Shown: piece by piece, positions 16,001-63,342 of the stretch | Layout of the letters: each line of letters begins with the position of its first letter | Position numbering within the stretch: the stretch's first letter is position 1 | Source: Datnioides undecimradiatus | Lineage: Eukaryota > Chordata > Actinopteri > Lobotiformes > Datnioididae | NCBI GenBank assembly: GCA_008933995.1 | Contig: WARS01000010.1 | Coordinates: 8,907,001-8,971,000 of the forward strand | Length of the DNA stretch: 64,000 nt | Direction of reading: 5' to 3' | Notes under the pieces: generated by a model | Told to the model about the DNA's origin: nothing | Seen by the model: the letters and a program-made list of their open reading frames with translations, nothing else | The model's database searches: none | Made by a program: the position numbers and the translations under genes

Positions 16001-19000
16001 GTTTCTCACTAAAATCTCTGCAGTAAACACAGCTAAGCAGCCATTAAAGATTATTTCTCAGCACAGTCGCACACACAAATGACAGTACTCTGGCTTGGGG
16101 GGATTAAAAATGTCTCCAGTTTACTTTCACACAGTAGATCTACAGAACATTATTATTCAAACCAGAATCTACGACAGTCTTTAATGTCACTTTCTAGTCT
16201 CCCTGTCCCCTCGGTTTTAACTCGGTACCATTAAACATGTCAAAACAAATGCTTTACCATATGTGCAGTAGTTCACTCTGTCACGAAACCTTTGGGCTCG
16301 GGTCAAAGGCAATTTAACAGCTGTGCAATTGTCTATTTCAAGTGGGATGAATTAAAGAAGAGCTCAATAAAACACAAGCCTGTATTTGCTGGAAGGACTT
16401 TAAATGGCACTAAACCTCGAAAACTCATTAAGGGCTATTTCTACCTCCCCCTTCTCCTCCTCTTGCTCCTCCTCTGCCTCCTCTCTGCCCACCCACACAC
16501 TCAGTGCCATAGATCTCCATCACGCACTGGGCATTTGACTGTAGTTTAGCCGTGCCCCCAATTACAGGATACCAGCCGAGGCGGAGGTAGGCATTAAATA
16601 AATTGCTGCCAGGGTTCCAGTCTATAGTTTGACTATTGCAATCATTAAACGGATGGTGTGACTTTGCTTCCAGAGTGAGTTATTAGGGGCAAAAATCCCT
16701 TTGAACTGCATTAACCACATGGTGTGTTTCAGTGGTGTGCATGGTGAGCACATGGGTGAGAGTGAAATCTTCACTGTTTGAAGATGGTGTTGCTGCTGAG
16801 CTCTGTATTTATAGGGTACAACGTGCCTTGAGTTTTTTTGGATAAATGTTAAAGGTTGGTTAAAATGTGTAGTAGTCACATTTTAACACAGTTGGGGTGG
16901 CTACAGGCATTTAAAAATGAAAATCATCATCGTCAGGCTGTCATACGTCCTCATTAGTCAGAGATGACAGGAACGCCCTACCCAACCCCCCGTGCTTATG
17001 AGTCAGACACTTTTAGCCCATGCAAAACATCATATGTTTTCAAAACATCATATGTTTTGCATGGATGACTTTCCATAGCTTTAAATAGCAATCCTTGGGT
17101 CACATGGATTGTGTAAATATGGGCTGTCATCTGGTTAAATATAAACTGTTGACCAAAGTGAAACGCAGACATCCTCAATTGTTTTTCAAAGACAGCATAT
17201 ATTGATACCTCTACCATCAGATTGAAAAAGGCATGTGCAATATCCAAAGAGTTAATCTGTTTTATTAGTATTATTATTATTAAAGCTATTATTATTGTAA
17301 TTTATCTCATTTACTAGAAATTGCTACACCTTCAAAATGTCCTCTGTTGTGTTTGCAGATATTCTATATTTTTCTTAGTGCTGCAAATTCTGTATATCTG
17401 TATTGTCTGTGTATCAAAAACCTAGTAGGTATCTGTGTTTGTCCTAAACTATTGTTCTAATAAGAGTCAGTGCCCAGCAGTTTTTGGAATTTTTAAAATC
17501 TTTTTTTCAAATTATAAATCAATAATTTTGTGATTACTTTAAAAAAATGTATGTCTTCAGTGGAAATAAATGGGACTTGAGTCTGACAGGCACAGACAGC
17601 TTAGGGAGATCTTGCAAAATGAATTAATACATTCTTGGTTTTGGTCGACTAATGGAATTAGTTGAAAATAAGAAAAAATATGGAATACTTCCAGCCTTAT
17701 CCTTTAATTAAGTATTTCACGGCTTAACTTGCTGCATATAAAATTACTTGAATATAGTTTTCAAGCAAAATAATATTGACTTAGAGTTTATTGCTCACAG
17801 AGGTTAATGACTTTACCGTCAGTATCTCATTAAAACAGTTTCAGGGCAGCGTAAAATGACTCCCTGTTCATGATACATAAGATTGGTGCTTATCAAATTT
17901 GAGTTATCGCCGTAACAATCTGATGAAATTGTTAGAAAACAGAAAACACAGGTGGTAACGAGCGGCTGGAGAGTCTGGGAGTCCAGCAGCTCAAGTAAAT
18001 ATAGCACAGACAGCTCAGACGGAGGATTGAGATCATAAGGCTTCTATTTCCGCGTGACAGGAAGGATGACTGACAGTGTCCGATACAGCAAATTAAACCC
18101 ACCTGTCTACCCTCTATGTGTGTGTGCAAGAGAGGGAGAGCGAGAGAGAGGGGGGGGAGATGGATGGGAGTCAGATCAATGTTTCATTGTGAGCTCGCTG
18201 CAGTGTGGCTGCCATTGTGCCAATAAAAACAGAGTCCATCATCCGGACCTGAATGAAATATCCCACCCTGCACATTGTGTGTGTTAAGTTGACAATTCAT
18301 ATAAAAACACACTGAAGACTTATGTTATGGAATGGCAAGATGTAGTCTACTTTACCACTGCACTGTGTTGTTCTAGTTCTGTTAATGCATTTGCCATGGA
18401 GCTTTCACACCTATTGTTGTTGTGTTAAACAGCGAATAGGTGTTGAAATTTCCCAGATATCAACACAGCATTGTCACTGGTAGTATGACTTTTTTTTGTC
18501 TTTTTTTAAGAAATGTTGTTTATTCTAGTGATGGAGTTCTCTGATTTATTCTAAACTGCTGCTGCTGGAAATGGGCGCCCAAGGCTTTTTAATTTCCCCC
18601 TTGAAAATTCTTAAACTGTCACACAGTGCTGAAAAACAAGCAAATCTCTCACAAAATGACCAGAGATTGAACCACAATGGTGCTTTATCAACTAGTGGCA
18701 ACACACTAAAGGATCTGGTGATTGTTGATGGATTAATCATTGGTCATGAAGGCTCCTCAGCCTGTTATAATCAAACACTTCTCAATCTGTATATGTCATC
18801 AGGAAATGTATTTCTCTCCAAAGCTATGCTGATGACACACCGCCATATGTGGCTGTCTTGTCTGATGACACAAGACCTAATAATGCTATTTTTCAATGTT
18901 TCATTGTAAGTACTATATTGCCTGGATGTCACAAAACCTTTACTTACTTACACCTCAACCAGGAAAGAAGCGAAGAGAGAAACAAACCCCCAGAATTAAA

Positions 19001-22000
19001 TTATCTGGGACTTACCCAGGGGCGACAGGCAGGAAACCTGATTTGTAACTTTAAGGCTCATGTGCAGTATGTTGTATTTCTCAGTCCGAGCAATACAGTG
19101 AGACTTATGCACACTTTTATACTCGGCTGGGAATATTATAAAAATACTCTTCTCTCTGATCCACCCATTAAAGTTATAAACCTGGTACAGTTTTCTTCAC
19201 AAGTGCTGACTAGAACCAGAAGAAGGGATCACATTGCTCATATAAGTAAATTTTCATTGTCGTGTTGTTTTGTTAACACTTTGTTAGTCATCCAGAACCC
19301 ACTCTTAGCCAAGGACCAAATGCCCCTTTCACATCAACTCACCAAGCTGCAGTTCAGGGTTGGTCTCACACAGGCTCCAGTCCACATTACAGTCACAGTG
19401 AGTCTTTTCAAACAGGTTGTCCAGAACTTCCCTGACATTCTGCCTCTCATCGACCATCAGAGTCTTGGAGCTGCCATCGTTCAAAAGCACCTTCACCACC
19501 AACTGTAAGAAAAATGTAACTTTATTTTACTTTGTGTCACCTTGCTGGATTTTAAGCAGTTCCAACCACTGAAAACTCGTACATAAAAGAAAAATGTGAC
19601 ATTCTTGCTGTCTCTTTAGTAAATATAAAGCTGCAGCAAGAAGCTGCTTAGCTTAGCAAAGTAACGACTGGAAACAGTATATACTTGTCCTAAAATCAGG
19701 ACAATCCGTTTTTGTACAAATTAGACAAATAAAATAAAGCATATTACTACTAGATAGGTATTCTGCCTTTGGACTGAGCCAGGGTTTTTAATTCTCCCTC
19801 CTCTCCCTGTTCTCTTCCTCTCACTCTAGTCTTCACATGAAGCTAACTCTCTCCTGGCTCTAACTTTATATGTAACGGACAGACATGAGAGTGATCAGTC
19901 TTTCATCTAACTCTCAGGAAGAAAGCCCAGTAAGTCTATCTTGCAAAACTATTTATTGAAGAGTTTCTGCATCTAACATGAAGCTTTCTCTTTCATCAAC
20001 ATGACAGATTGACGCCTGAAACATGCTGTGGACAGCAGCAGGTGTCTCTAAAGTGTGACATCAAATCAAGCTTTAAAGCACATAGACCTTGTTCACTTGC
20101 CCATTTAATTACAGGCTACAGTAAATTGTTGTTTCTGCTTGCTAATGTTAGTTTTACTAGAAGAGTAGGAGCATCAGCACTTCTGTCTCCATTCTGTTGA
20201 ACCTCTCTAGGTTCTGTAGTAATTTCTTCTCCTTTTTATTTTCCTCTTTTTGGCTGAGACAAATTTGGCTGAGATTAATTTAACTCTGGAGCGGCGCAGT
20301 GCTTTCCTTACAAGCTCATATGGCCTCTCACTTCCTCTCATCTGAAACAAATCCAGCTTTGGGAAGCTGAGGCATCTCAAAGAACCAAGGTCAGGCAGCC
20401 GCTCGCCTTGTGTCATAAAGATGTGGGTTTCAGAGATGTTATCACAAGAGGATTTACAGGGTTAGATCACATGTTGCTTGGCCTTGACCTTCCCCAGAAA
20501 ACAATAAGGGTTAGCATGGGATTGAATGATATGTCACTGGATATCAAATTACTTTTCTTTTTTAAGTACTTCTATATGCAAGGTAGGTATCTTCAGAATA
20601 CATGATCCATATGAAAGCATCCTCAGGCTAAAGGCCTGAGCTGTCGGTGGTTTTCTGCTGAAACTGACTGAGAGTGCAACTTGTACTCATGTGTCCAACT
20701 ACTATGAGACAGATGTTCCCGTGAAACTGGCCAGTGGTCTGTAGCCACACTTGATTTGTTCCTTTAGATTTTAGGCAATTTTGAAGAATTTAAAAGAATT
20801 GCTACCATAGCAGATAGACCTGACAGTGATGCAGCAACTGAAAGCTATGAGTGGAAGTGTAGAGGTGTCATATATATCAGCAATGACATGACCTCTGATG
20901 AAAAGACAGACGACAATTGGCACAAAAGGTTTTTGTGGGTTTTTTTGTGGTTTTTAATTGAAGAACCTGATGTGAAGGTTTGCACGCAAGACCACATGCC
21001 TGTGCTTTTGTTGACTGCTTTGAAGATGAAAAAGTGTTCACTCTTTCGCCCAAAGAGGAAACCGTGCTGTACCTGCAGGATGTTGGCTGGATGAAAGTGG
21101 CCATTCATTATTGTGACTGATGGTTCAAAAGAAAAAAAGAGCCGTACTAGGTTTGAACATTACATCTTTAGCAGTGATGTCCATGTAGCCGTAATTCACA
21201 ATGTCTTTAAAGTTTACTGTTGCCAGTGGATGTAAGATCAGAGCAGTACCCTTCAATGTTTGGTTGTCTTACCTTTTTGACTTTGGCTTCCTTGAGCTTC
21301 TCAAGAGCCATCTTGATTTTGTCTGCTTTCATCTGTGCCTCAATTTCCTCCTGCAGAAAATAATAATAACATATAATGATTATAACTGTGACATTTGGAA
21401 AATGTTTTGAGAAAATCAATACCAAGAAATCATCTTTCATGTCAGTGAAGTACACAATTATGGAACAGCTTAAGGGAATTGTTCTGTTGGTGATATTTTT
21501 GTAGATTAGCATCACAGAAAAGGTGAAAACAGCTAGCCTGTCTCTGTCCAAAGCTAAAAAAAAATCCATCTACCAGCACCTCTGAAGGTCAGTAATACTC
21601 TGATTTGTTCATTAAAACGAAGCTGAAATACAACTTGGCCAATAGCTGTAACTTTCTCGAGTCTTGTCATCACTGACACCAACCAGCGGATTCCAGGAAC
21701 AAATAGTTGGTGCATAGCTGCCCATAAAAACACAACTTAGCGCTTTGACACTTTTTGTTTTTGACTAAACAAACAAGAGAAAAACATATTTACAGGTAAT
21801 AAACATATTTATTTTTAGTTAGTTTCAGGTGTGCTGTTTTGCAGATGTTGTTATATTAAGAAGGAGCCAGATATGCTGTTTTTTCCTGTTTTCAGCCATT
21901 AAAGCTGTAGTGCAGGACTTTTGTCTGCCCCTTTTGGCAGTAAAAGTAATTACACAAACACTGTTGACATAGTCATGAACCCATAGGCTCCAATATGTCA

Positions 22001-25000
22001 CTAACTGCTGTAGGCTATTCTGTAGCAACGGTTCCTCCACCCTCAACTCTGGTAAACCATCTCAGACCATCTGAGAGTTCATTTTCTGTGGATGACACAG
22101 GTGCGCGTTTTGTTCTGATTTAGTTTTAATTCTATGACGGAGGTGTCCATTCAAGACTTTCATTTGGGACATTTCATCCAATTTTCTGGATTTTGATTAA
22201 TCTGGGATAGGATACCCTTTTCTTTGGCTTATACATCAGGTGTGTTTTTACACTGAAACCCTGCCACAGTCAGTTAATGAACTTGTACGACTCTACCTAA
22301 CAATGACACATTCTCTGCCTCAACACAGATGGTGTTTTTACCTCAAAAGATGAGGTAACAAGCCCTGCTAAAGCAATAAGCTCCTGTCTGGCTTCGCCCC
22401 CCCCCACACACCCCTGCCACATCTCACCTCCCCTTCAACCTTTGGTATTGATCCTGTTACTCTTTCTTGCCTCATGGCTGTATGTGTTTGATCTGTTCCA
22501 GACAGACTCTCCGCTGTTTCGCCTCACAAGTCTCTGTAACTGTAACAGATGCCTCCATCCAGCAACAACTTCGCCATGATCTCACCATTCTAACTGTTTT
22601 AAGAGAATAGCACTCTTCCCAGTTCCACAAAGACAAAAGAAGCTCACCAGAAATTTATATCCTGGGAACTGGTGATGTTTTTGTTGTAATACTGTCTTGT
22701 CACGCATGGCTCAGAAAGTGCCTTCTTGTGGTAAATCAAGACACGCCACCAATAAAACAGAGATTGTGACATTATTGCCTCTTTCTGCTTCATGTTTCTT
22801 ATATATTACATTTTAAGAGCCTAACAGTGCGCCGAAACGTTCCTGTCTTCCCTTTGTATCTGTCGTCCATTATTGTGGCATTTTCTTTAAAACCCTACCA
22901 ACCAAAGTCAACTCTATATTACTCTGACAAGCCTTGATTAAAACTCTCACTTCTGAAAAATTTGGATCAGTTCCCAGCAGAGAGGTTAGAGATGCTTCTC
23001 TTTTTACAAACTGTACACTCACCTTTGTAGGCTTTGCAGACTGAGGAGGCGGAGGTGGTAAAGGGGAGGCGGCAGATGAGGCCGGGGTGCTAACATTGCT
23101 GCTTGCACTGCCTGCGGGGGAAGTCGGGGAAGTGAGGGAGGAGGCAGGGTGAGTGCTAAGACCCATAGGTGGTGGCGGTAAGTCTGACAGGGGTGGTGGT
23201 GGCACCTTCAGACCCTCTATCTCAGCTGCAAGTTTCTCTTCTGTTGCATTGAGGTCAGCAACCAAATCAGCCATGAGAGCGTCCAAATCATTGTCCTCAA
23301 GTTCGTGGAGGGATTCTGGTGTTAGAAGAAAATCATTAAAATTATTATTAAGAACTGACTCAGTGTGTAGAAGAAAAGAGCCAGATGTGTTTTGAAGTCT
23401 TTTCGAAAACCTTTCTCATTGAGAAAATGCCTTAGTTCCTTTCTAGGAATCAGTCAGGCCTTGTTTTCTATGAGAATTAAAGGGTGGCACTGTAATGTTA
23501 ACTGGAGTAAAGCATCAATTAACCATTAGTTTACCACTATTATGCCAGTATTTACAGCTTAAAAACCCTGTATTAAGGTTCCACTTTTAGACCAGCTGAC
23601 AGCATGGCTCTCACTTCAGTGTTAACTAGCAAATGTACGCATGCTAACATCCTAACAAACTTAAGTTGGTGAGCATGGTAAAAACTGTCTGTCACTGTGA
23701 GCATGAATGTGCTGATGTTTGCATTTAGCTCAAAGCACCAGTGAGAGCTGCTAGATTTTCAGTCTTAGTCTAGAAAATTTGTATTTCCTGGTTGATTTCA
23801 ATTACAGTTAAGAAGGTTTGTCTTTGTAAAGTCATTTAAGCTAAAGAGTTGTATACATTCACCGGACTTGACAAGACTGAAGAATGTATTTGCATATCAA
23901 CTAAAAAGAGGGAACAGGAAGACTTAAAGTAGAGAGCGAATAACAACAGATGCTGCAGCTCTGCTGTAACGTTTGACAGTCCATAAGAGCCAGAGTAATT
24001 AGTGTGTGCATTGACCTCAACCATTATCTGAAATCACCTCTTGAACAGTAGCCAGATATATTATACTTCTACCTCTTTACATCACTACCAGCTTTCCATT
24101 TTCTAGATAACTGATGAAACATGCATTATCCTGCCCTTGCACCACAGCTGTGTCATTGAAAACCGTCATGCAAAAGATCTTTGTGTTATTTCTACAAACT
24201 CAACCGTCAAAAGTGTAAGTCACCATTCAGGTCGCTGAATCCGATGGATAAGTTGACTTCCTTTTCGGTTTTGGGGAGAGATGCAGGAGGTACCGTTTCC
24301 TGACCGAGACTCTGCAGGCAAGAATGAACAAGGCAGTGGCTTTGTGAGAGCATGAATACACAATCGGCACAGACACAAGACCCCCAGAGACTCTGTAAAT
24401 TAATCCACAACACACTCTGAGTGCTCTGGAACATAAACTGTCCTGTAAAATATTATGTAAGACAGTATAATGTTTACACATGTTATGTTACATCTGTTTT
24501 TAGGTTTTACACCTAACAGGGCTTCTATGTGTAATATAAAGCCCCTCCTGGTGAAATGGTAGTTATTTAAAATGACTGGGTTGGAAAACAACATCAAAGT
24601 GATCAGCAGGGCTTTTCACTAAGCAACTGCCATTTGACCTCCCATCTGAAAGAGAAGGTAATATATGGCTGTTAGGTGACCACAAAGAGTGTTTCCCCTG
24701 CTGTGTCTGTTGTGCTTGCTCGATGGTGGCTTTTAGTGAGTTTGTCATCCATCTTTAAAGAAGAAAAGTTCCATTTTAGCCACAGGCTGTCAGGCTGACA
24801 GAAAACATGTAGTGTTCAGTATTTATTGAATGATATTCAGATATTATATTACAAAAACAGAGGCTTGATAAACTAAAATGTATTCATCAAATTAACCTTT
24901 TGCATTGTATGTTGTATATCATAATAATAAAATGTACCTATAGAAGTAAATTACAGACAAAAACATTTATAAAATGGCACCCACTTATTGCACATTATAA

Positions 25001-25461
25001 GAAGCAGAGTTGTTACACAATGTAGCCACTCATTTATTCACAGTAAAACTTTTTCATTTTACCTTTGTGGTTTTTATTGCTTTTGATTGACATATGTTGA
25101 TTTTTAATAAGGAAAAGGAGAGAGAAATTGTTTTAATCCTTACCAACATAGCTTTTATACTTTATCATCTTGACTAGTATGTGGTATTTATTTTCTGTCT
25201 CAAAAGCAAATGGCAATAAGGTACAACACCTACGTACCAATAAGTAATAAACAACAGCAGTATAAAGTAATAATGTGTATTGAAAAATGAAACAGGTAAC
25301 AAAGAAAAAGTGTTGAGATGTGGTGTGAGGAGCAGCAATAAAACTGTGTGACCATTCTGGGTTCACGTCTTACAGTTGTCATGGCAACTGACTTAGCTTA
25401 CCTGTGTGAGGAGGTCCATCTCCCCCAGCAGGTCACTGAACATGGCATCAATGTCATCCAT
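10051..25461 (-). CDS. apbb1ip: APBB1IP / RIAM, Rap1-GTP-interacting adaptor, complete coding sequence
   Basis: Cytoplasmic adaptor that links active Rap1 to talin and Ena/VASP for integrin activation. Coding exons in transcript order: 25461-25402, 24311-24224, 23315-23023, 21350-21273, 19502-19343, 15363-15242, 14569-14495, 14371-14228, 13792-13682, 11772-11674, 11581-11458, 11348-11287, 10683-10051; 2049 nt, 682 aa. Order of parts: talin-binding helices DAMFSDLLGEMDLLTQ (5-20) and DLDALMADLVADL; a Pro/Ser linker with PPPP runs; a basic helix ending LKEAKVKK; RA domain from LVVKVLLNDG (174 to about 260); PH domain about 303-413 (ALYLKEDGKKSW-type strand, ASGIYYVPKGKTK); and a Pro-rich tail of about 210 aa with FPPPP and repeated LPPPPP motifs for Ena/VASP and profilin. 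The tail ends in a Gly run and DFMSELMMAMNKKRGN, matching the human C-terminus. The start ATG at 25459-25461 is close to the acceptor, so the 5' UTR exon(s) lie upstream and were not located. The protein is slightly shorter at the N-terminus than human RIAM. Confidence 0.97.
10083..10680 (-). repeat. Proline/glycine-coding low-complexity tract in the last apbb1ip exon
   Basis: GGN/CCN-rich imperfect triplet repeats encode many PPPPP blocks, one run of 12 prolines and a run of about ten glycines just before the C-terminal helix. The tract is coding, not a neutral microsatellite, but its purity suggests length variation between individuals or species. Confidence 0.75.
17023..17058. repeat. Two head-to-tail copies of an 18-nt near-palindrome
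   Basis: The unit CAAAACATCATATGTTTT occurs twice without a spacer (17023-17040, 17041-17058). Flanking CCATG and GCATGG extend the outer symmetry, so the whole can fold into a hairpin of about 13 bp with an inner loop. It lies in the apbb1ip intron between the RA-domain exon and the next exon. Confidence 0.8.
19628..19680. repeat. Fragment of the TTAGCTTAGC fold-back repeat family
   Basis: Carries GCTTAGCTTAGCAAAG followed by ACTGGAAACAGT, matching one arm of the fold-back copy at 39538-39811. No second arm was recognised nearby. Confidence 0.4.
21525..21590. repeat. Fragment of the fold-back repeat family (inner part)
   Basis: Contains ACAGCTAGCCTG, CTCTGTCCAAAG and CTACCAGCACCTCT in the same order and spacing as the copy at about 39575-39622. 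Confidence 0.5.
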
Positions 25462-31400: not shown

Positions 31401-34400
31401 AGTCTGGGTGACTTGACTTTGAGGCTTACAGAAATTGCTTTCACTTACACTCTGACCCTCTTTTCTTTGCTCAAAATCAGGAAGAAATATCTTAAGACAT
31501 TGGTGTGATGCAACAAGGTCAGTTATCTTCAGGGGGAACCAAGGAAAGTCAAGCTGTCAAGCTATGAATAGCCTCTGGCTCTTATCTGACCATGCAGACA
31601 CAGATAGCTCTATTTATTTGCATTTCTCCTTGAGTCAACCTGGGAGGCCAAAAAAACAAGATTTCACATCGTATGTTTAAATCTAATCTCACGGAGGCCC
31701 CATTATTACACTTCTACTAGCTTTCCCTCATTGTTGCCCACATTTTCATCTTGAATATTTGTTCCCCTTTGCATTGTTTTGATATTATTAACACTTGTAT
31801 GTCTTTTTTTCCCTCAAACCAGCCGAGGCTGCAGTGGAAGAGACCAACCACCCTCTCTGTGGCAAAATCCTGTCATCACAGAAGCCGAGCACCATGGGGG
31901 GAAAACCAAATAACCTTGAATGCGTCCAACAGCCCTTCGTGACTCGTGATGTATTAAACAAACACTCAGGGTACAGGCATGTGTCCCAACCACTGCTCAT
32001 TTCCTCTCTCTCTCTGTCAGGGGTTGACTAACAGATGGACAGCCATTAGCTCCAAGCTTCTCCTAAATACCAACACACTGGTACCTTAGAGAACATTTCT
32101 CAAACAGATACGCTGAACGGCAATGGAACTTGAGCAAGGAGAGAGGTGATTTTTCTGCTTTGTTGTATCTTTGCAGTCACTCTTCAGTCACTGAGGGTGG
32201 TCCAGTACCATTGTTGATACTTAAAATGTTTTTTGCCCATATATGCATCAACTTCATGACGTTGAGTAAAGAAACTGTTGAGGATTGTTACTTTTTAGTT
32301 GATCATATTTTATGCATTACAAAGCATGAGCTGCAAAAGCTGCAATTTAAAAGCTTTACAGGTTGCCAAACAAAGTTCTGCTGGATAAAAAGCAGTCTTT
32401 TGGCAGAATACCAGATGGTAAAGTGTGAGGTATAAAAGAGGGCATACATTTCATTCATTAGTCTCCATCATGTTAAATATGAGTGCTCTAACACACCCTT
32501 AAATACTTTTCTTGGGTTTTTCTGCACTGAAGGAAATGGGGTGATAATGATAAAACCAGTGGGCACCTTGCAAAATAATAAAGCATTTGTTAAATGTAGT
32601 ATTGCAGAGGACAAACTGTCACCGTGATGATGTGAAAAGTGATGCATACAGGAGTGTTGTAGTGCCCTCTGTTTGTACTCTGCTGTACTGACTTCAGTGT
32701 GGTGGTGTAAAGCAACCGACCTGCACTTCTTGTTGTGTTTGTGGAACAGCGATCCAATCAACATGTTTACGCCAGAAAAATAGCAAACACTTAACTGGAT
32801 CTTTCTGTATTTATAACTAATTTAAGTTTCCAATCAGACTCCCTGCTCTGCTTGGCAGGATTTGTTTGCCAACAGCATCCAACAAACAAAGAGTTCAAGG
32901 GTTTGTTTTTATTCATCTGAGTCCAGCTCAGTTGTGTATGGAGGCCTATTACTGCCAAAATTAAAAAAAAAAAAAACAACATTCGAAGAAAACAAACATT
33001 AGACATTAAAAACCATCACTCATTGCAAACCAAAATGAGGACATTATGAAAGTAGAAATGAAATCAAACTGATGATATATTAAGTTAACATTATGAGAAA
33101 AAATAGGTCAAAAGTTTGACAAATTAAATCAGGACAAAAATTAAAAGCAATGAATAGGAATTTATTTATATTATTTAAAATTATATCCTAACATTATGAA
33201 ACATTACATCAAAATTAAAAAAAGAAATAAAAAGTCAAAATTATAAGAAAAAATAAGAAATCTGTTAGAAGATTGCTTTAAAGATGGAATATAGCTGACA
33301 TTTACTTTGTTGTTATTTCTGTCTTTACATCTTCTGATGTAAGAAAGTTCAAAAATAAACTAAAAAGAAAAGTAGTCAAACTGATGGATTATTAGATCAA
33401 AATTCTGAAAATCCAAGTCCTAGGATTGTTTATGAGATATAAAGTCCAAGGTATAAGTCAAAAGTTTGACTCAGTTGTATTGTCATGATATGTATCCCCC
33501 CCGTCCTTCCTTTTGGCAGAAAATGACCTCCATACAAGCCTAACCTTTAAATAATCAAACTGAAAATTTACTTCAGAACTTGACAAAGCACAAACATCCC
33601 ACCACACATCATCCTCAGATAACCCCCCACTGGACATGTGGTTGTGCTGAGGCACTAAAAGAAGCGCATAAGACAGAGTCCAAAAACCAGCTGTGGGTTT
33701 CACATTCCTGACTTCTGCCAAAGGTCCCTTCAACAAAAGTTTGACCTCTGCCAGCTCTGTCTATAAAGAGGGGCGCCCGGTGTTGACAAGGCCAGTACAA
33801 CGTGAAGGACACTGGGTCGAGGACCAGCAGCTGTCTCAACATTCAGGATGTGCTGAACAAAAACCACTGCCACTTTGTGCGACGGGGATGGCCATAAGGT
33901 CATAGGAAAGTCAACAGTGAGCAAAATGAAAAGTGGCAGTCATCAGGAAATAGGGATGCGAGGACTGGAGAGCATGACCCTGTTAGTGCATGGCCCAGAT
34001 TTCTCCTTTGTTTTTCCTTTTAATATAAAAATGGGAGCCAGTATTTGTATGTTTTGATTTAGAAACTGTTTCTCTCTGCCCTGTATTACTTCAGTGGGGA
34101 ATTCCTGTATCGAGAAGAGGGAAAGTGAAGGGTTAATTTGTGGCCGGGGAAACCTGATGCTAATTAAGTCTTAGGAATGCCACATACTGACATTGTAGTG
34201 CAGAAGCCCTCAGAGTGGGTCAGGCGTGGAGAGAGCCAGCAGTAATGCGTGTGTCTAATGTTTTTATTCCGTAGTGACAGTCGGGAAAGCCAGTCTCACC
34301 AAACCCTGGAGCTGAAGGTAATGTCCTGTCCAGATCCGCAGATCAACAGTCTCTGTGTCAAGCATGATGAAGTTTGTTTTCACTTGTGATAGAGGGGTGT

Positions 34401-34553
34401 TTAATATGAAACAGGATGATGACTGAGGGACTTTTTCTGGATTTATTTGATAGATTTTAAGGGATTTTTCCCAGATGTATTATTTGGAAATCACAAGATC
34501 AACTCGCATTTTTCTTCTTTTGCAGGGAGAGAGGGAGAGATAGCTGACGCAAA
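25462..34553. other. 9-kb non-coding interval upstream of apbb1ip (-) and of the 939-aa gene (+)
   Basis: No coding exon recognised on either strand. Only short open frames without family signatures occur. The segment is AT-rich, with TAATAA-type low complexity (about 33040-33450) and one fold-back repeat (28815-28974). It should contain the apbb1ip promoter and 5' UTR and the promoter of the plus-strand gene. A splice acceptor (pyrimidine tract ending TGCAG at 34525) precedes the ATG at 34554. A possible non-coding exon of about 34276-34317 (acceptor CCGTAG, donor AAG-GTAATG) could supply the 5' UTR; that part is speculative. Confidence 0.4.
28815..28974. repeat. Fold-back (inverted-arm) interspersed repeat
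   Basis: The left arm (28815-28854) and right arm (28931-28974) are inverted copies of about 40 nt. Shared blocks are TAGCTTAGCTT, GCATAAACA, CTAGCCT and CTGTT, around a core of about 75 nt. The structure is MITE-like; no coding capacity. Confidence 0.7.
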
Positions 34554-37500
34554 ATGGTTTTAGGAACACCAGTGCTGTTGCTGCTGCTGCTGTCTTGGGT
34601 ATCACTGCAAGCTGTCGCAGAGATTTGCCGGGGGACGCACTGCTACGGCGCGGAAACCGGCGATCCAAGACCGTGCACCGGAGCGCACTGTCCGGGGAGC
34701 AGATCCTCCAGACCCCCGCGGCAGTTCAACCCGACAACGCAGGGGAGAGCGGCGCAGATAGTTGCCAGTCAACACCATGCGTACCCGAGCTCTCCAAGAG
34801 CAGCATCGGAAGCCTATCCGGCTGTCCAGCCACTTCGCGGGCGCCACGGTGACAGCAGCAGCGGCACACGGATAAGAGCGCTGGAAGTTTTACCTGCGGG
34901 ATGCACCGATGTAGACTGCGCCGCTCTTGTGAAACAATTTCAGCCCACCAATGACACTCGAGACTGTAGAGGGATCGAGTGCAGACTGCCACTGAGGATA
35001 CGGCCAAAACCTCGAGCAAAGTCGTGTGTGGGAGAGGGCTGTCTGGCCGCTTCAGAGGAGAGCGTCTCCTCTGCCGCCGCCAGCCAGCTTCCTCCTGTCC
35101 ATTTGTCCGACAGAGCCGCACAGTTTCTGGGAGATTTTCCGGAGGTAGGATATCCGTCCCCGGAACTTGGCGGCGCGCCTTTGGGTGTCCAGCTCACATG
35201 TGACATCAAGCCAGGTCTGTTATCATCATCATAACTGACATCTACAATTTTAACAGCTGTGTTTTCACGATTGAATTAGCTGATTAACCATCGCAAAAGA
35301 CCCTCCGTGCACAATTGCGCACAGGTCTAACCACTGCGAGACATTTCCAGTTGAGTGACAATCTTGAAAAGAAGTTGATGAATTACAATCTTGCAGCGTA
35401 AACATTGTGCATAACACACATACATAACACTTTATTGACTTTAACCCCCTTTTCCCACCAGTGATCAGCAAAAAGGGGTTTATGGTCTAAGAGCAAAGGA
35501 AGACTTTGTTGACCTTCAGCCCAAAATGATATCTGCAGAGCAACTAGAGCAGCTGAACTGGAAAAATGTCTCAGAGTCAATTGTCCAGAAAATGTAGAGT
35601 GCTTTGATGTTGGTCCATATAGGAAACGTTCATTACACTTGCCATGGCTAGACCGATAGAATGGGGTCACTGGGTGTTCACACTTTGTTCCTGCAGAAAT
35701 CAGACTACTGAATCAGTCTTAATCTCATTTAATCACTTCCTCTGCTGCAGTGTTTAACATTAAGAACATGTCTGTCCGATCCCATCTTTCACTCTGTATT
35801 ATTTTCCTCACAGGGGAGAATGAAGTTCCGTCAGAAGATGCCCTCATATTACACCTCCAGCTGGCTAAGGGGCAGGAGAAGCTGGTGGAGGCACTGCGAG
35901 CCCAGCAGGTGGTCATCCGCGACCTGCAGCAGAAGCTCGCAGACCAACAGGAGGCACTACTGTCTCAGCAGAGGGAGATCTTGGAGCAGCAGCGACGCAT
36001 GTATGAGCAGATGGATGTGGTGAAGGCCCAATACGGCCTCCTCTCAGACACCATCAAACAGGTCTCCTTCCAGGGCCTGCAGGGCGAGCTCCAGAGCTAC
36101 TTCGAAAACCACCTGGCCGGCCTGCAGAGCCAGGCCCGCAGTCACCTGCAGAAGTCCTACGCTGTCCACAAAATGGACATGGAGTCGAAGGTGATGGATG
36201 TTGTTGGAGAGGCTAATTTTCCTCAACCTCTGCTGGGATGCCCGTCACCTTGTGGGCAGGAGGAGTTCTGTGATTTTCAGAGGGACCCGCCTCGGTGTGA
36301 GAAGTGCACCATGTGTCCACCAGGCTTCTTTCTGATCTCGCAGTGTTCTCCTACAGCAGACAGGATGTGCCAGGTATTGTCTTTTAAAATACTGATATTT
36401 CCTTTTAGACTAACACCCTTGTAGCTGTATTTTAAATACCCTCTTGTTTTTATGATTATATTGGTCTCATCTGTGAAGTGTGAAAAGCAACCCACTGCAA
36501 AAAGTGTGAATAGATTTCAGCTGTTGTGTGGCACGGTAGTGTCAGCCTGTGGTTTTCAAGCATACGCCAGCAATCCCCAAACATAACAGCAGCTGATTCG
36601 GAATGAAAATATTCACACTCTAGGGCATCAATAGCTGATATCGTCCCTGATTAGAATAAAAATGAAAGGAAAAACCCTGATCCTTTTTTATTTTATGTGA
36701 TTTTAAAGTCAATTCAGTAGGACAAAAGATATTGCTCTGTAAAGGTAACTTGGGCCAGCCAGATGTTTCCAGCAGAAGATTTTTTTTTAAAGAAATAAAA
36801 GCTTGAATCATTTTTGTTGTTTTATTTTCTGAGATAAAAATGCTCATTTGATATGTAGGGTTCCTAATTATTGATTATTTTTCATGATTTTAGCACAGTA
36901 GGCAGAAAGGTAGACAATCCTTTGATTAAACTTGGCATCCTAATACTATTATGCTTCTCAACAAAAAGTGTTTGCATTTGGCCCCGGGCCCTCCATTAAG
37001 TTTGGCCACCCCTGGACTGAACCCTATTTTTAACACTGAAATGTATTCATGATGGTAATATTCATTTGTGTGAATTGCAGGACCGGGATGAATGCCTTGA
37101 ATTACCAAACATTTGTGGAGAGCGAGTGAAATGCCTTAATACTCCAGGTAAGTTCAATACATTACTTGTTTTTCATGACTAATGCAATTTGTTCTGTAAT
37201 CGTGCTAATTGTGGGTAAATTAAAAAAATAATGATATTACCCATTGACATTTTCACTGTAGAACTATTTTCCACATAGGGCACAATGCTGACAGTCCTGT
37301 CAAAACAAAAGTGCACTGCATCACTGTCTGCAGAGACGTTAGATGCTGTTTTTTTACCCTTTGCTGTTCCATCCGCTCTGATCTTAAACTGTGCAGGGGG
37401 GTTCAGATGTCTGGGAGTTTCTGAGAGAGAAGCAGTGATGGGCCTGTGTGGTCGCGACTACTTCTACAACCAGGAGCTACAAGAGTGCCAGGCCTGTTCT

Positions 37501-38928
37501 GACTGTGACGGAGAGCCTGTCGCTGTTCCCTGCACAGCTGTCAGTGACGCAGTCTGCGGCCAGTTTTCAGAGAGCCGACTGTCCCAGTCTTGGGGGGCCA
37601 CTGTAGCTGTTCCCCCTGCCCGGACCTCTGGGAGCCAAATCTTCCCGGGGCTTCAGCTAAACATCCATGGCAAAGAGATCACTGACCTGTTGGCTAACGA
37701 AGCAGGGCAAGTGAGGTTTCTGCAGCATGGCCTGGTGTGGTTGGATCATAACTTTGCAATTAAGCACAGCTGCAGAAACTTCCTTCAGGTGGGCATGAGG
37801 CTCAATGGGAGCCAGGAGGAGGAGGGTCAGGACCTCAGTGGTGTTCGCATTGAACAACCAGATGGAAAGTACTTCCAGGGGGTCAGCATCAGCAGTGGAG
37901 TTGAGGTGGAGCCTAACCACACTTTCACTCTCCTCCTAAAGAGTCCAAATCAACACTGCAACCAGAGCAAGGATCTTCACTTCTATGATATCACCACTCC
38001 CACTTTCAGCCTGCTCTGGTTGTCACATGATACTGGTGCCGTGGCTATGACGGCTCAGATGTCTATGTTGGCACACTATCAAACCAGCTACCGCCCAACT
38101 TTCCGCATGACCTCAGTGTCCGACCCATATATGATCATTCTCACCCATGACAGCCGCGGCGTGCGCTTCACAGAAAGCGGTGTTGTCAAGTTCATCCTCC
38201 AGCAGGCGCTTTACTCCATGGGCCATACCTGCATTCGAGAAGGTTTCTCCCTTATTGCCTACACCAATCGCAACGGGACTGGCCAGGAGGCAATGCAAGC
38301 GTTCAAAACAGGCGTCAACTACAGGGACACCTCTATCACTCTCTCTGGAGCTGTGAGCGTGGACAGTGGGGACACACTTAGCTTTGAGATAACATCTCCG
38401 TCCCAGTGCAACATTCGCTACTTTGGGGACAGCACTGGAATCAGCATGCTGAGCCTTATCTGGATTCCTTCAGCAGTGTCAACAGCCCTGAGTGCTACTG
38501 TGTCCAGGACTGGTCTCCCTTTTGGAGCAGTCAGGAACAAACCTCTGTTATTCCAGCAGATCAGCCCAGATACTCCGCAAGTTCATTTGGCTCGCTCAGG
38601 TGAGCCAAACAGCCGAAAGAACTTTATATTCCACGAGAAAGGGACGGCTAACATAGCCCTTAACCTAAAGCTGATACACTCTTGTAATATCATAAAACTC
38701 ACTTTGCAGCATGTCGGGGGTCAGGGCGAGCAGGCAGGTCCTGTGGCTCAGCAGGTGTCTGGGTATATGCCTGAAGGGAGCCAGTGGGCCAGTATTGGGC
38801 TGAGGGCCTCATTTCAAGTCCAGAACGGTACGGCTGTGTATGTTACTCTGGACTGTATCCGTGGGCGAGTTAACCAGATAACACACGAGGGCGGCACTAA
38901 TATTTCAATCCTCTGGGTTGCAGCGTGA
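34554..38928 (+). CDS. Unrecognised secreted multidomain protein: Cx4C repeats, coiled coil, TNFR-like/EGF Cys-rich region, three beta-rich repeats
   Basis: I cannot assign this to a named gene. Coding exons: 34554-35214, 35814-36373, 37081-37147, 37397-38928; 2820 nt, 939 aa. The ATG follows an in-frame TAG and an acceptor at 34525. The N-terminus is a strong signal peptide (poly-Leu, about 1-22). Residues 25-163 hold five C-x4-C motifs (CRGTHC, CTGAHC, CTDVDC, CRGIEC, CVGEGC) separated by Pro/Ser/Arg-rich spacers. About 228-310 is a Gln/Leu/Glu heptad-type coiled coil. About 365-510 is Cys-rich and TNF-receptor-like; exon 3 within it encodes a calcium-binding-EGF start (DRDEC) and NTPGGFRCLG. 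About 535-640, 685-787 and 838-939 are three related beta-rich repeats, each with an early HSC/HTC Cys, a second Cys, and an ending such as SLLWL, SLIWI or SILWV. These look C1q/TNF-like, but that is inference. Several N-x-S/T sequons support secretion. No membrane anchor is seen. The gene is absent from the equivalent human interval as I know it. Confidence 0.88.
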
Positions 38929-39234
38929 TCCATGAAGGGAGGAAGCCTTCATTCAATACACTTTGTGAAAAAAAGACAGTTTTGCACGATATTGAATTGC
39001 AGAGCAAATTCAACTATTTACCAAATTAAAGAAGCATACTGGGTGATGAAAAACAATGCTATTCATCTATTAAGCATATTTTGTCATATAATTGTTTTAA
39101 ATGCATCAGCTGTTTAGACTTTTATTGTGAAATCTCTTTTGGGTACGATTTACATATTGTAAGTACTGCATTTGCTTGAAGTACTTCGGCTGGTTGAGCA
39201 GTGACCAATTCTTCTTTGAATGCGTTTATGCGTG

Positions 39235-53545: not shown

Positions 53546-56500
53546 TTATAGATCTTGGCCGAGCCGTTCAATCTCCTCAATAAGAAAATCGATGTCCTCG
53601 AAGGTAGCAGCCGGATTTGAGATCACCATGCGGAAAAAGTTGACCTTGTCCCCTTGTGGTTGGTAGCCGACCATGGTCGTCCCGTACTCCATCATCCGGG
53701 CCTTTATCACTGGAGCCACCTGAAAGATCCAAAAGTGTTTAAGTACCATATCTGAGAAACAAAAGATCATTTGCCTTTAGCACCCTTTTGAAGTTACAGA
53801 CAGCAGCTGGTTAGCTGAAACGTGCTTGAAACGTAAAAATGGCTAACCTGGTTATGTCCAAAGGTACCAGAATTAGCCTACAGCACTCCTCACTGCTAAA
53901 TATTTTGTTGTTTTGTTTCTTTAATCTGCACAGAAGGTGTAAAAATGAGACATTATGGTTGTGGTTGTACACGTGGTTATGTGCCGGGCTATTTCTTTGG
54001 AGCAAGAGTCTCTAATAGAGTCTGTGTGGGTTGCTAAGCTAAGCTAAGCTAAGCTAAGATAAGCTAAGATAGCCGACTACAGACTCCAGCTTAATAGCCG
54101 ACAGATAAACTTGAGGTTGATATCAATAATCTCAGTGAACTCTTAGGATAAAGTGATACAGTGGGGGTTTTTTAAATGTCAAACATTTCCTTTAAATAGC
54201 TGCTCTTAAATGGTCCCTCTTACACTCAAGTTTCTTGCCCACAGACTGATTAATGCTTTTATGCTGTTTACTCATAAAGTTTTCTCATTAATAAACTGCC
54301 AGGGGTGAGTACAATACAGTTTGTATTTTGCTGGCACTATTTAAATGATTTAAAAAGCAGGAAAATGTTGAGAAAATGTCAATTCTTTTTCAAACCATAT
54401 GCAGTCTGCAGCAATAATCTAACTCAAACAAAGTGTAATGCAAAGTGCTGTGGATATAAAAGTTAACTGCAAAAGATGAGATCACCTGTAAATGAGTACT
54501 GAGAATCTCCACATAACAAATTATTAAAAATGCAATTGAACATCCTTTCTTCACCAAACAACATAAGGTGTGATCACACATCTAAAAATGTAAAGGACTG
54601 AGTAATTTTGTGAAAAATGAACAGTACTAACCTTGACTAACTAATTTTGGAAAAATGTTATCAGATCTGTACATTTCCTTTTTTGTTTTCTTGTTCAGCA
54701 ACTGAACAAGCCCAGTTTTCTCCTCAGCCTCCTCAGATTTGGAGCCATGTAGTCCATTACCCCCACCACTGGTCTGACAGCTAAATCTGACACCAGCAGG
54801 GTACACAGCAGCACTCTGACTGCTGCTGCTGCTGCTGCCAAGTTGAGAGGTTATCTCCGCCAGTAAAGCAGTGACAGTCATTTATTTCGTACTCAGCTGA
54901 GTCTTGATGGCGGTGTGGATTATGTCCTGTGATGAGCTGTGGCAGATTCAATTACAAGTTGGAAGCTCACACTCCTTGTTTTGACCAAAACCAAACTATT
55001 AAGATGCTGTGAGACTGACGAAGGAAAAACATTTCAATAAACCCATCTCTGAAAGATGATTTTAGGGCCAGCGCTGGCTGTTTTTGCGAATGTGATGGGA
55101 TCTATGGTTACAGTACCATGGTAAAACATTTGTGACCCATACTGCTGTATAAAAAAAGCATTTACAATTTTCAGGTTGGACAGCAAACGGTGAAACAGAT
55201 GGTGAGGGTGTACCATGGGCTCTACAGATTATCTTAAAAAAATGCACATAGTTCACTTTTTCACTAGTTACTTGAAGAAACTTCACGATCTACCAATAAA
55301 ATATCTATTGTCTGTTTTGTGTGCAGGGTATAGAGTAGGTTGTTTGGGAAAAAATAGCTGAATTACTTTTACTTGATTAAAAGACAAAAGTACTTCTTCT
55401 TCCACCACTGGGCTTACAGTATAACGGCTGCAGTGCAGTGCTTGTACTGTACTTCTCATCACATAATCAGCCACTCCCTCTAAATCTCTTGCAGGTGTCC
55501 TGATGCAGCTGGCAGGCTCTGCAGTTTCAGTAAAATAATTAATCAGTTGCTGCAGATTTCCGTCAAATCAGTCTTTTGACAATTTTCCAGTCATTAAGTG
55601 GAAATTGAGGAAAGCTCCTTGACTTCGGGCATTTTCCTCCCTGAGCTAAACGGGAAGCATTACATCATCCCTCAATCTTAGTGTCAGAGTTTGTGGAAAA
55701 GAGAGAGCTGGCCAAACACTCTGTCACAGTGACGCATGTACGCCGAGTTTTTTTTAAATCTGGAATTTGGAAAACAAAGGGAAATCTCTCTGTTTGATGA
55801 GCTATCACAAACGTGGCAACGATTTATGGCCGATGGTTTTACAGCAAAGGAGAAAGATCTTTGTGTGGCCTGCATTTACACCATCTGTTTGTCCTAATTG
55901 TCAATTAGTAGGCCCCTGCTGCTCTGGGATCCCCTGAATGGCATCCTTTTTAGCTAACTGAATAGCCTGACTCCCTCTAAGTCTGGCCTGTGATACCCTT
56001 CCTCTTAGACAGTGTAACCTGTTTTAAGGCTTTCACAGTTATATCCCATGTGGATGGCAAAGCATGTTTTTTTTTTTTATCCAGAGTGGATGTTCATGTT
56101 GTCCCTAATGAGGAGGACACGTGATGGTCAAGCTGGATAGGAATGGCAGGCTTGTAGGGCAAAAGAAATGTGCAGGTGAAGGTGTTTTTCAGAGATATTA
56201 TAGTCAGGCTTCTTATCGCTGCTCACCCACCTTGTGCAAGTGTTTCTTTCTCTCCTCTTTGTCCTCCATGTAGCGGATCCCAGGAGGGAGGTACCAGAAG
56301 CAGACGTTGGTGTGCTGAGGCTGCGGGAACACGCAGAGTTGACAAGAGACATGAGGAATGAATTACTACAGTTGTGTGAAAGCAAAATATGCACACCTAA
56401 ACAGCAGAAAATGATTAACTATTACTGAGCTTTAGTGGAATAATTAATGGTGAAATCAATAATTTTTTGTTCTTAGGAATCTGTTCAAATTAAAGCCACT

Positions 56501-59500
56501 ATGTGGAGAATTTGAAAACTTCTTGACATTGGTGCCCCCCAGTGGAGATTCCTTAATATCAGACATACTGATATGACTTTAATGATTACATACACAATAT
56601 TATCAAAACTAACCACATTCGTTGTATGTTTTAAGCTGCTCTAATCAATATTTTAGATTTTAGATCAGCAACAGGAACACTCATAGTACTGAATCCACAG
56701 AGAATTATCACCCGACTCTTGAGGTCCTCTCAGTTTTATGATGTGTTTTTCCATCTATCAGCTCATTACTTTGGTTCTATGTCCCGCAACTTTTGTTTTG
56801 GTTCATTCTCACCACTCACACCAGGACAAGTTTAGCAGGCAGCTGAGCGGTTGTTTAGCGGCAAACCCATCGTGCACTACGTTTCCACAGCCACAGTAAA
56901 CACGCTGGCAGACAGAAAGTTGACAGTAATATATTTAGTTGCTAAAAGGGCCAGAGGTTCCCTCCCAAGTTGGTGGAGACCAAAACAGAGCTAAAACAGA
57001 GAAGAAGAGAATTTTGGACTTATATTTATCAGTTGTCTGGAAACACAAACCACCAACTCAATGCTAGCGTTTTTCTGTATTTACTGGATGTATAAATCAG
57101 CAACTGCCTGCTAACGTGTTGCACTACATTATATATCAACTTTATGAGCTGATAATGTAAGCTACTGATGATGTGTCAGACTGAGCCGTGCAGCTTGTTG
57201 CATTCCCCTCAACCTAAAAAGAAGAAAAAAACGAATGGAGGTGTGGAAATAATTAGAATTATTTACAAGATGCAATAATCAAATTCACCTCTCACATATC
57301 AAATAGTAGCATTAATGTTTTAATCACAATATATTTAAGAATTTTTTAACATACCAAGAGTATTATTTTAGATAGTATTGTATTGTATATAGAAGTATTT
57401 GAAAAATCTGATTATCAAATCTGATATCAATTTCAATCATGGTACTGAGTTCTGTCCACATGAAGGCGAGTATTATACACACAAACCGATATCAGCAACT
57501 ATACACACATATTTACCAGCCGTCCTTGCATGACATACTTCAGTTGCCTCAAAATACAGAGTGCTGAAAGTAACCATAGCCCATCCACTTCACTAAGACA
57601 GAGAAGATTCTGTCCAGCTCAAAAAGGAAATCCATTAGGTGTTCCCAGCAACACACAGGTATGCCTCTTCCTCAGATACTCTATTTGTCTGAAAGCCTTG
57701 CACGCCTCTATTTTTTGGAATCTGAAGCCCTGCTGGAGCTGCCTGCCTGCCTGCAAGTGGAAAAGCATTCATTACCAACAGCTGACTAGCCATGCACACC
57801 AGCCTCATTTATACAGCCAGGGCTGGTTCGGCTGGAGTACATTCAACATCAGATTGATGTAATGGCTCAATGGGAGGCACAGACAAGTGAACACCTGGGC
57901 CAGTGCCCAGAGGACTTGGCTTTTTCCCATCACCCTCTGGGTTATGATGCTCTTAGCCTTTTGCAGCTCAGCAGGAAAACAATAAGCCTTTAAACATTAC
58001 GGAGCTTTCACTAGAAATGACTCTGGGTGTCCAAGCACTCCTTTGATAAAAGACTTTTTAGCTTAATACACCGTCATACCGGCATATGTTTGTGCTGTTG
58101 TGGCTTTGCTCGGTAGAGGATATTTCAGACACCATGCTATTCATATGCATATGAGCAATTACAGGCCGTTATGCTATTCATTAAACATAATAGCAGCACA
58201 TTATACTGGCAGCCAGAGGTAAAAATGGCATTCATCCAACACAAAGCGAGAGCACACAGTGTGCCAATCAAGGCACCCATAAAGACACTGAATAAAGGGA
58301 GGTAAAAGAAGCAGCATGGGCTAATGTCAGCCACTCTTCTCTGGCTGCAGATCAGTTATGCTTGTGGATAGTCAAAGCTAAATGTGGACATACCTTTCCG
58401 TCAAAGACCATCTCGTATCCTTCTCTGTCTTTGATCTTGTTGTAGAGGTACTCTGACAGCTCCAAGCACTTGTCAATCTGAGCCTCAAATCCAATAGTGC
58501 CCTGTCAAAGAGAAGACTGTCAGCTTGGAAAGCATCACTTACTCTAATGAATATGATGTGATCATCATAGATTAAAGTTAAATGTTTCTGTGGAGAAATT
58601 GAAAGTGTCCAAAACTGTGCGTACAATTCAGCATATTTACATTAATACACATTTCATGTTTCTCTTTGTTTCTCTTTCATTTTTAAATTAAACATTACCT
58701 TAAAAGGACACAATGGTAAACAAAACAAGAATGAGAACATCTATCAGAGCTTAGTTATTCAAATTTTAAATAGTAAATCCTTTGAGTTGTATGTTTAACT
58801 CTGGTTAAAAGATGAAGAAACCATTGTCCTTGATGTCTGTCACCGTAGAAACCTTCACAGAATCAGTCTGTGTTTTAAAGACCTCTATGCCAAATACAAG
58901 CACCAGAGTTCATTTGCCATTTTAGCTTTTCCTCACCTTCGCTCTCCACATGAGCCAGAGCTTGAAGATGTCCACATGGCGTCCACACTGCAGCGCTTTG
59001 TCTCCGGTGTCGTAGGAAAGGTCGTAGTGTTTGTCCTGCTGGAACAGGTAGCAGGCGTGCATCTGGTTGCAGTTCTGCATCAGACCCTGTAAAATCACAT
59101 CCAGAACGGTTGGTATTATAAAAAAAAAAGAAATGTATTAGCAGAGTGTGACAATGAGAAGAGGGATAAGTCCTACCTCCTCTCTGACCAGCAGGGCCGA
59201 GCACTGCAGGGGCACAGACATCATTTTGTGCGGGTTCCATGTCACTGAATTGGCCCTGAAGTCAACAAAAACAACCAGCATGTATCATTACATCAATTCC
59301 TCATCAGCTACTAACAATTTTCGCTTTGTGTTGCACCCGCCCTCCAAGAAAAACATTACGTGCCTCTCGACTCCGTCCAGCTTCCACCTGTGTCTCCTGG
59401 ACATGAGGAGACTTCCTCCCCAGGCACCCTGACAGGACACACAGTGAGAAGCAGACATGTGACACTTTGCTGTTGATCATTCACCACTGCCAGCGGTGGA

Positions 59501-62392: not shown

Positions 62393-62432
<40 letters not shown>

Positions 62433-63342
62433 TCAAGACACAGCTAATGTGCAACATGAGTAATTCCTGCGCAGGGTAACAAGATCATTGACATTTGAGT
62501 GAAGAAAACAGTAATGATCGCTCGTCATTTGATCCAATGAGACACATTTTTACAATGCAGCTGAACTGAAACATAAATGCCTACATGTTCAGACGTGAAG
62601 GCCACCAGTCTGGGAACAGATGACATTCCTTTCTCCTTCACTTCAGGGAACATCTTGAAGCGAGCCAGCAGCATGGCATACATGTTAGAAATAGCACCAC
62701 CTAGAGGACAGACAGAGCAGTCCAGAGTCAGTCCACATCACAGCTTCAACCAGTCTCATGGGAATGATGCAGGCCCTCTGACTGACACAAAGCATGACAG
62801 AGTTTAAAATGTCTCTGCATGTTTAAAATAATGAAGCAACAACAACAACAAAAACTTGTTTCACAGCGTATCAGGAGTGTGTCGAGAGATGACACAGCAT
62901 CCAAAATCACAGCTCGCTGTCCACAGTGTCAGGGCCAATCACGGTCTTTGTCTTTAAATTCTCCAATGAGCACTCGTCATCATGTGTCAAACAGAAGAGC
63001 AGGGGAGAAATTAAAGAGTGGAGGGCGCAGGGGTGGGGGCTCAAGTTGGAAAAAGAAAATGATTTTATGCTAATTGGCTTTGAAACGAGTTCCATTTATA
63101 TCATCAAAATGCAAATTGACACATTACAGCACAGCACACACACGCACACAGAGGCAGTTCCATTTTCAGTGAAACAGAGGGGTGGTGGGTTTGGCGGCGC
63201 CTCACACATGTACATACATACATACATACCAGGAGAGAAAATGCCATCTCCTCGCCCATCCGGCCAGCCAATGATCTCCCTCATCTTCTTCAGAGTGACG
63301 TATTCCAGCAGCACAAAGACAGGAGCCACCTCATAGGTGAAC
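53546..63342 (-). CDS. gad2: Glutamate decarboxylase 2 (GAD65), C-terminal ten coding exons; 5' part beyond window
   Basis: PLP enzyme converting glutamate to GABA in neurons, mainly at synaptic vesicles. Exons in transcript order: 63342-63230, 62700-62585, 62086-62007, 61374-61320, 61183-61067, 59428-59364, 59255-59177, 59086-58937, 58501-58394, 56320-56231, 53719-53546 (eleven segments, ten introns); 1147 nt, 382 aa, about the last two thirds of a 585-aa protein. Visible motifs: [47 protein letters not shown] around the PLP-ring Asp, the PLP-lysine motif NPHKMM, and the C-terminus [32 protein letters not shown] matches GAD2 rather than GAD1 (which has VAPKIKALMMESGTTMV). The position next to apbb1ip agrees. 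The intron after 59364 has a GC donor. The exons for the N-terminal palmitoylation/targeting region are to the right of position 64000. Confidence 0.97.
54031..54070. repeat. (GCTAA)n tandem repeat in a gad2 intron
   Basis: About seven 5-nt units, two with an A for C change. The motif resembles an arm of the TTAGCTTAGC fold-back family, from which it may have expanded. Confidence 0.75.
54820..54838. repeat. Short (CTG)n triplet run in a gad2 intron
   Basis: Six CTG units in intronic sequence; CAG on the gad2 strand. Confidence 0.75.
56630..57040. repeat. Old interspersed repeat, copy B
   Basis: Diverged relative of 41331-41750, in a gad2 intron. It includes GGTGGAGACCAAAACAGAGC and a following TTATATTTATCA block. 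Confidence 0.4.
62398..62430. repeat. (AC)n microsatellite in a gad2 intron
   Basis: About sixteen uninterrupted CA units. Confidence 0.9.
63210..63229. repeat. (CATA)n run at the donor end of a gad2 intron
   Basis: Tandem ACATACAT units directly abut the donor site of the exon 63342-63230; on the gad2 strand the intron begins GTATG and continues in TATG repeats. Confidence 0.75.

Follow-up and report, generated by a model that had tools for sequence, protein, structure and literature searches.

The stretch of Datnioides undecimradiatus DNA considered here (contig WARS01000010.1, positions 8,907,001 to 8,971,000; 64,000 nucleotides in full, hereafter the window) carries a four-exon gene on the forward strand (34554-35214, 35814-36373, 37081-37147, 37397-38928) that lies between APBB1IP and GAD2, with both neighbours on the opposite strand. 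As a sequence-only reading of the window had proposed, the four exons join in phase into a complete protein, here of 939 amino acids (aa) with one terminal stop. The introns are all GT-AG, with intron phases 1/0/1, and among the junction combinations scanned only one (35214/35814, 36373/37081, 37147/37397) has all six GT/AG sites. The exon-4 frame runs for 549 codons from stop to stop, twice the longest frame simulated at exon-4 composition (274 codons; 214 codons at window composition; 20 Markov-simulated 64 kb sequences), and the coding sequence has a third-position GC (GC3) of 0.61 against 35-40% GC in the introns. The features of the gene, all on the forward strand, are as follows.

34318..34525, forward: candidate 5' untranslated region intron (GT..AG) just 5' of the start codon, predicted from sequence alone
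34554..35214, forward: coding exon 1, with start codon, putative signal peptide (~aa 1-22; hydrophobic N-terminus, paralog match), Cys-loop region and lone Cys216
34626..35042, forward: five C-x4-C mini-loops (aa 25-163) within a stretch rich in Ala/Arg/Pro/Ser, all ten cysteines kept in the paralog
35199..35201, forward: Cys216 codon, just before the coiled coil; no obvious partner in its own module, QLTCD conserved in the paralog
35814..36373, forward: coding exon 2, encoding the coiled coil and TNFR module 1; the paralog has three exons here
35828..36082, forward: Gln-rich coiled coil (aa 226-310), with heptad register and 3.5-residue periodicity
36251..36370, forward: TNFR_c6 module 1 (aa 367-406), Pfam 36.3 bits alone; extra Cys373 inside, Cys363 before it
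37081..37147, forward: coding exon 3, covering the larger part of a calcium-type EGF (aa 408-434), which ends at 37410 in exon 4
37397..38928, forward: coding exon 4, with the EGF end, TNFR module 2, three beta repeats and stop codon
37447..37557, forward: TNFR_c6 module 2 (aa 447-483), Pfam 33.0 bits alone; six-Cys pattern
37585..38067, forward: repeat 1 (R1; aa 493-653, 161 aa), putative TNF/C1q-type jelly roll from its homology with the other two repeats; Cys555, Cys617
38068..38511, forward: repeat 2 (R2; aa 654-801, 148 aa), nearest to TNF ligands by sequence; Cys708, Cys767
38512..38925, forward: repeat 3 (R3; aa 802-939, 138 aa), predicted seven-strand TNF/C1q jelly roll; Cys859, Cys916
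39025..39030, forward: candidate poly(A) signal ATTAAA, likewise predicted

Searches across the source assembly (581 Mb, 497 contigs) revealed a second copy on another contig, C477. Exon 4 matched itself and this one place (58% identity over 509/509 aa, no stop), and exon 2, at an expect value (E) <= 0.001, matched itself and three pieces at the same locus and nowhere else. Within 60 kb around this place, tblastn with the whole protein recovered the modules in order, including the exon 1 part at 38% identity over aa 7-222, and six GT-AG exons there encode a 943-aa protein that keeps all 35 cysteines of the window protein (38 in all). Identity between the two copies is 18% in the signal peptide, 46% in the N-terminus, 61% in the coil (221-352), 63%, 75% and 54% in the first TNFR, EGF and second TNFR modules, and 49%, 66% and 61% in R1, R2 and R3. 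Synonymous sites are saturated (proportion differing, pS, 0.76), while the nonsynonymous proportion (pN) is 0.28 overall and 0.24-0.30 in R1-R3. As judged from this comparison, the second copy is full-length and under purifying selection, and it turns an orphan into a small family. All three window junctions have counterparts of equal phase in the paralog. Window exon 2 (35814-36373) corresponds to C477:4165794-4165999, 4165387-4165557 and 4164534-4164686, so that the paralog has two extra introns there; either one copy has lost introns or the other has gained them. It is hardly by chance that two old copies have kept their frame, their module order and all these cysteines, so the exons make up a single functional gene. 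The retention of every module in the same order in the paralog shows that they do not come from different genes.

The most hydrophobic stretch of the protein is its N-terminus (hydropathy 2.12). The next best 19-residue stretch, located in the final strands of repeat 2, reaches 1.54 (1.63 in the paralog), no other exceeds that value and there is no clear second hydrophobic segment. The natural reading is a signal peptide. The proposal of one complete secreted mosaic protein is supported. The five C-x4-C motifs noted in that proposal are present at residues 25, 41, 117, 138 and 158. When 10 cysteines were placed at random in 178 residues, 7 of 200,000 trials gave five pairs. The stretch that holds the motifs is probably disordered. 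Cys216 is a candidate interchain disulfide residue. The Gln-rich coiled coil, also part of the proposal, is supported by hydrophobic residues at 62% of a/d positions in the best register over aa 226-310, and its helix may extend to ~aa 350.

Both TNFR-type modules separately pass the Pfam TNFR_c6 cut-off of 29.4 bits, and the whole protein scores 50 bits (E 3.8e-13) and the paralog 45.4 bits (E 1.1e-11). The module between them has four of the six EGF cysteines and scores 22.6 bits for EGF_CA, below the cut-off of 27, but carries the calcium-type (cbEGF) pattern D-x-D-E-C...N-x4-F-x-C. A Pfam search of the window protein gave no death-domain match at E <= 10.

Each of the three C-terminal repeats, previously described as beta-rich, carries one cysteine pair. 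R1 and R2 are alike (alignment score 62, reached by 0/1000 shuffles), as are R1 and R3 (51, reached by 2/1000), but R2 and R3 are not alike in direct comparison (665/1000 shuffles reach the score; 5/100 with two-copy profiles), so that R2 and R3 appear to be linked mainly via R1. Structure prediction, suggested alongside the sequence-only reading, was informative for repeat 3 alone: its AlphaFold2 model (predicted local distance difference test, pLDDT, 63.4) led in fold searches to a TNF/C1q-type jelly roll, with C1q and caprin-2 rows tied with TNF rows, while a single-sequence model of the 460-aa C-terminal half was unusable (pLDDT 32.6). A TNF homology domain/gC1q fold is supported by the model for repeat 3.

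By sequence, the three-repeat region scores 13 bits (E 0.1) against Pfam TNF (PF00229), below the cut-off of 23, a match assigned to repeat 2. The TNF-profile score of repeat 2 was reached by 2/2775 scored shuffles (3000 made), with an hhalign score of 26.4, while repeat 1 alone gave no TNF or C1q signal. At E <= 10 neither copy matched Pfam C1q (PF00386), in a search whose HMMER filters can drop weak matches. With a profile of seven C1q domains no repeat rose above its shuffles: 2219/2645 scored at or above R2 and 321/2349 at or above R3 (R1 unscored). With an earlier profile of three such domains, R3 scored 5.1 bits (E 0.0034, three targets searched). Taken together, the sequence points to TNF over C1q for the heads, mainly via repeat 2. 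C1q as the closer relative was set aside, its sequence support being weaker than that for TNF; the fold cannot decide. Several results weigh against the TNF assignment. R3 in the three-domain profile and R1+R3 in the hhalign comparison lean to C1q. In hhalign, FN3 scored 19.1 (a short match) with R1 against 10.7 for TNF, 20.2 (also short) with R1+R2 against 21.2, and 16.0 with R3 against 15.4. In a six-repeat test with a TNF score of 27.0, that value was equalled or exceeded by 1/200 shuffles; on re-running, this outlier proved to be an artefact of the program, its 133.4 coming from an alignment of 3 columns, and the next best shuffle scored 17.7. The C1q/TNF-like heads of the sequence-only reading stand as a predicted fold for repeat 3, with sequence nearer to TNF than to C1q.

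Searches of Pfam, NCBIfam and the PDB sequences turned up no characterised family with this module order; the sequence-only reading, too, could name no vertebrate protein that has it. NCBIfam returned a single chance row (E 5.3). Among PDB sequences the whole protein had 25 matches at E <= 10 (best 0.0016), 24 via the TNFR/EGF part and one via the coil (FAP99, E 4.1); separate searches at that threshold with the N-terminus, with the coil and with the C-terminal half found nothing, and a profile of the three repeats returned two rows (E 0.38 and 0.44). Searches for relatives gave 7 pattern matches in viral contigs and 25 in prokaryote genomes, none confirmed, and no match in phages; since fish orthologs are not expected in such collections, this is no evidence of rarity. 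Among the literature matches listed (titles and abstract openings), none describes this protein or any gene lying between APBB1IP and GAD2, and neither neighbour is named in the available part of a survey of fish TNF ligands (PMC7674686). The gene is probably already annotated in fish genomes as an uncharacterised protein. What appears new, from its sequence, is the unmatched combination of known modules, with tandem TNF-like heads and TNFR modules on one chain.

The position of the gene between APBB1IP and GAD2 was borne out by tblastn and Pfam; the sequence-only reading had placed it inside a block of conserved mammalian synteny.

11516..25458, reverse: APBB1IP (RIAM) ortholog, span of the exons matched by tblastn with human fragments; Pfam RA above cut-off, PH below
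53549..62737, reverse: GAD2 ortholog, found by tblastn with a human fragment; Pfam Pyridoxal_deC above cut-off

The left end of the window has a Pfam polyprenyl synthetase match (PDSS1-like). A long proline-run frame at 9986-10935 on the reverse strand, without a Pfam match, is presumably the APBB1IP C-terminus; overlapping long frames on both strands there are caused by GGT/CCA repeats. Between the gene and GAD2, a 144-codon open frame (41339-41770, forward) without a Pfam match is probably due to chance. Across the window (1-64000), a tRNA search found none and no Rfam family reached its gathering score.

The paralog likewise lies beside an APBB1IP-like gene, with six exon matches collinear with those of the window at 59-80% identity. 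Assignment of this neighbour to APBB1IP rather than RAPH1 is not firm (summed bits 311 vs 297; identities 156 vs 158 with the human proteins). The same block holds an ABI-like gene, whose SH3 exon, also recognised by Pfam, is 91% identical to human ABI1, and frames with CPWE-type motifs, without a Pfam match, that we take to be GPR158-like; no GAD2 match was found by tblastn within the 60 kb around the locus. Human 10p12 contains GPR158, MYO3A, GAD2, APBB1IP, PDSS1 and ABI1. The teleost genome duplication would be expected to leave two blocks with such shared 10p12-type content, and the gene would then predate it. The gene is not known from the corresponding block of mammals, and its place in a conserved block beside GAD2 would allow its gain, or its loss in mammals, to be dated by species comparison. 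In a six-gene region of the guinea fowl, APBB1IP is listed at 15.60-15.66 Mb and GAD2 at 15.73-15.77 Mb, a gap with room for an unannotated gene, though none is shown there (PMC6579635). For the spotted gar, an excerpt records that gad2 adjoins myo3a (PMC4962313).

We consider it fairly probable that this duplicated fish gene encodes an oligomeric glycoprotein, secreted and rich in disulfides, that belongs to the TNF/C1q jelly-roll superfamily and works as follows. The Gln-rich coiled coil, locked by Cys216, would assemble a rod, probably trimeric; the TNFR-EGF-TNFR segment would act as a rigid spacer that binds calcium, or as a docking site; at the C-terminus, the three TNF-like heads would bind matrix or receptors on the cell surface with high avidity; and the Cys-loop N-terminus may anchor the oligomer to matrix or cross-link it. 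Such a working mode would be akin to that of multimerin or of a collagen-tailed C1q/TNF ligand, while by the tests made the protein is a member of neither family.

The closest rival, which we hold to be possible if somewhat unlikely, is a structural matrix protein in the style of multimerin/EMILIN, in which N-terminal cysteines cross-link, the coil trimerises and the jelly rolls bind integrins or matrix with no signalling. It shares the general plan of a Cys-rich N-terminus, coiled coil, EGF and C1q/TNF heads, and would account for the odd cysteine before the coil and the many conserved cysteines, but Pfam EMI and C1q are absent at E <= 10 in both copies, and TNFR modules and tandem heads are, to our knowledge, foreign to EMILIN/multimerin.

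Within the favoured mechanism, the heads of a chain could pack as one pseudo-trimer, as in an engineered single-chain C1q head (PMC4774423), or as three layers in a three-chain molecule. The former would make the protein a natural single-chain TNF-type trimer, with three tandem domains from one exon closing into a pseudo-threefold head, TNFR-type modules on the chain and a coil that multiplies the heads, so that one secreted polypeptide would unite the ligand-type and receptor-type halves of the TNF system; we regard this as an unlikely variant. If true, such heads might come to present three distinct receptor faces, as do engineered APRIL-BAFF-BAFF and single-chain C1q molecules.

A soluble decoy or carrier, whose TNFR modules capture TNF-family ligands as those of osteoprotegerin (OPG) and DcR3 do while the heads serve oligomerisation, seems improbable. 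The two TNFR_c6 modules above cut-off and a signal-type N-terminus as the only stretch above hydropathy 1.54 are in keeping with it, yet there are only two modules, with an EGF in between, non-receptor proteins also carry TNFR-type modules, and the heads (49%, 66%, 61%) are on the whole conserved like these cysteine-rich domains (63%, 54%). To be doubted as strongly is a pattern-recognition lectin of the C1q/BC2L-C type, with heads that bind microbial or cell-surface sugars: a shared fold shows no function, and the low divergence (pN 0.24-0.30 in R1-R3) is unlike fast-evolving immune recognition. An artefact, with exons from different genes or a decayed gene, is highly implausible: although the gene is known here from one species' genomic sequence alone, it has a full-length paralog in which the module order and the cysteines are conserved, the junctions are homologous and the synonymous sites are saturated, and the open frame is common to two old copies.

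The two copies represent an apparently unnamed, duplicated fish gene family that combines TNF-receptor-type and TNF/C1q-type modules on one secreted chain. Should the three heads close into one trimer, the family would parallel engineered protein designs in a natural molecule and form a branch of the TNF/C1q superfamily that was not expected and that standard profile searches miss.

With the TNF ligand superfamily (TL1A, CD40L, TNF, 4-1BBL, APRIL/BAFF) the protein shares the predicted jelly-roll fold in repeat 3 and the F-G strand pattern in repeat 2, but where those ligands typically have a type II anchor it has a probable N-terminal signal peptide, along with three tandem domains per chain, TNFR and EGF modules, and a score below the Pfam TNF cut-off. 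C1q-domain proteins have the fold superfamily in common with it, but it has no Pfam C1q match and a coiled coil in place of collagen. EMILIN/multimerin proteins are likewise secreted, with an N-terminal Cys region and EGF (present in multimerin-1), and their long coiled coil and C-terminal C1q/TNF-type head have putative counterparts here in the coil register and in the jelly-roll model of repeat 3; they differ in that the window protein has TNFR modules, three heads, five Cx4C loops and no EMI match (Pfam finds none in the two copies at E <= 10, nor with the N-terminal mature region alone). OPG and DcR3, of the soluble TNFR superfamily, share TNFR_c6 modules and secretion, and such decoys are not known to have a membrane anchor with a death domain or TRAF-binding tail; here, unlike there, an EGF lies between the modules, and a coiled coil and ligand-type heads are on the same chain. 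The engineered single-chain C1q head, as far as the available part of its description goes, also places three jelly-roll domains in tandem on one polypeptide, but was man-made from three C1q chains, whereas the tandem triple here is natural (PMC4774423).
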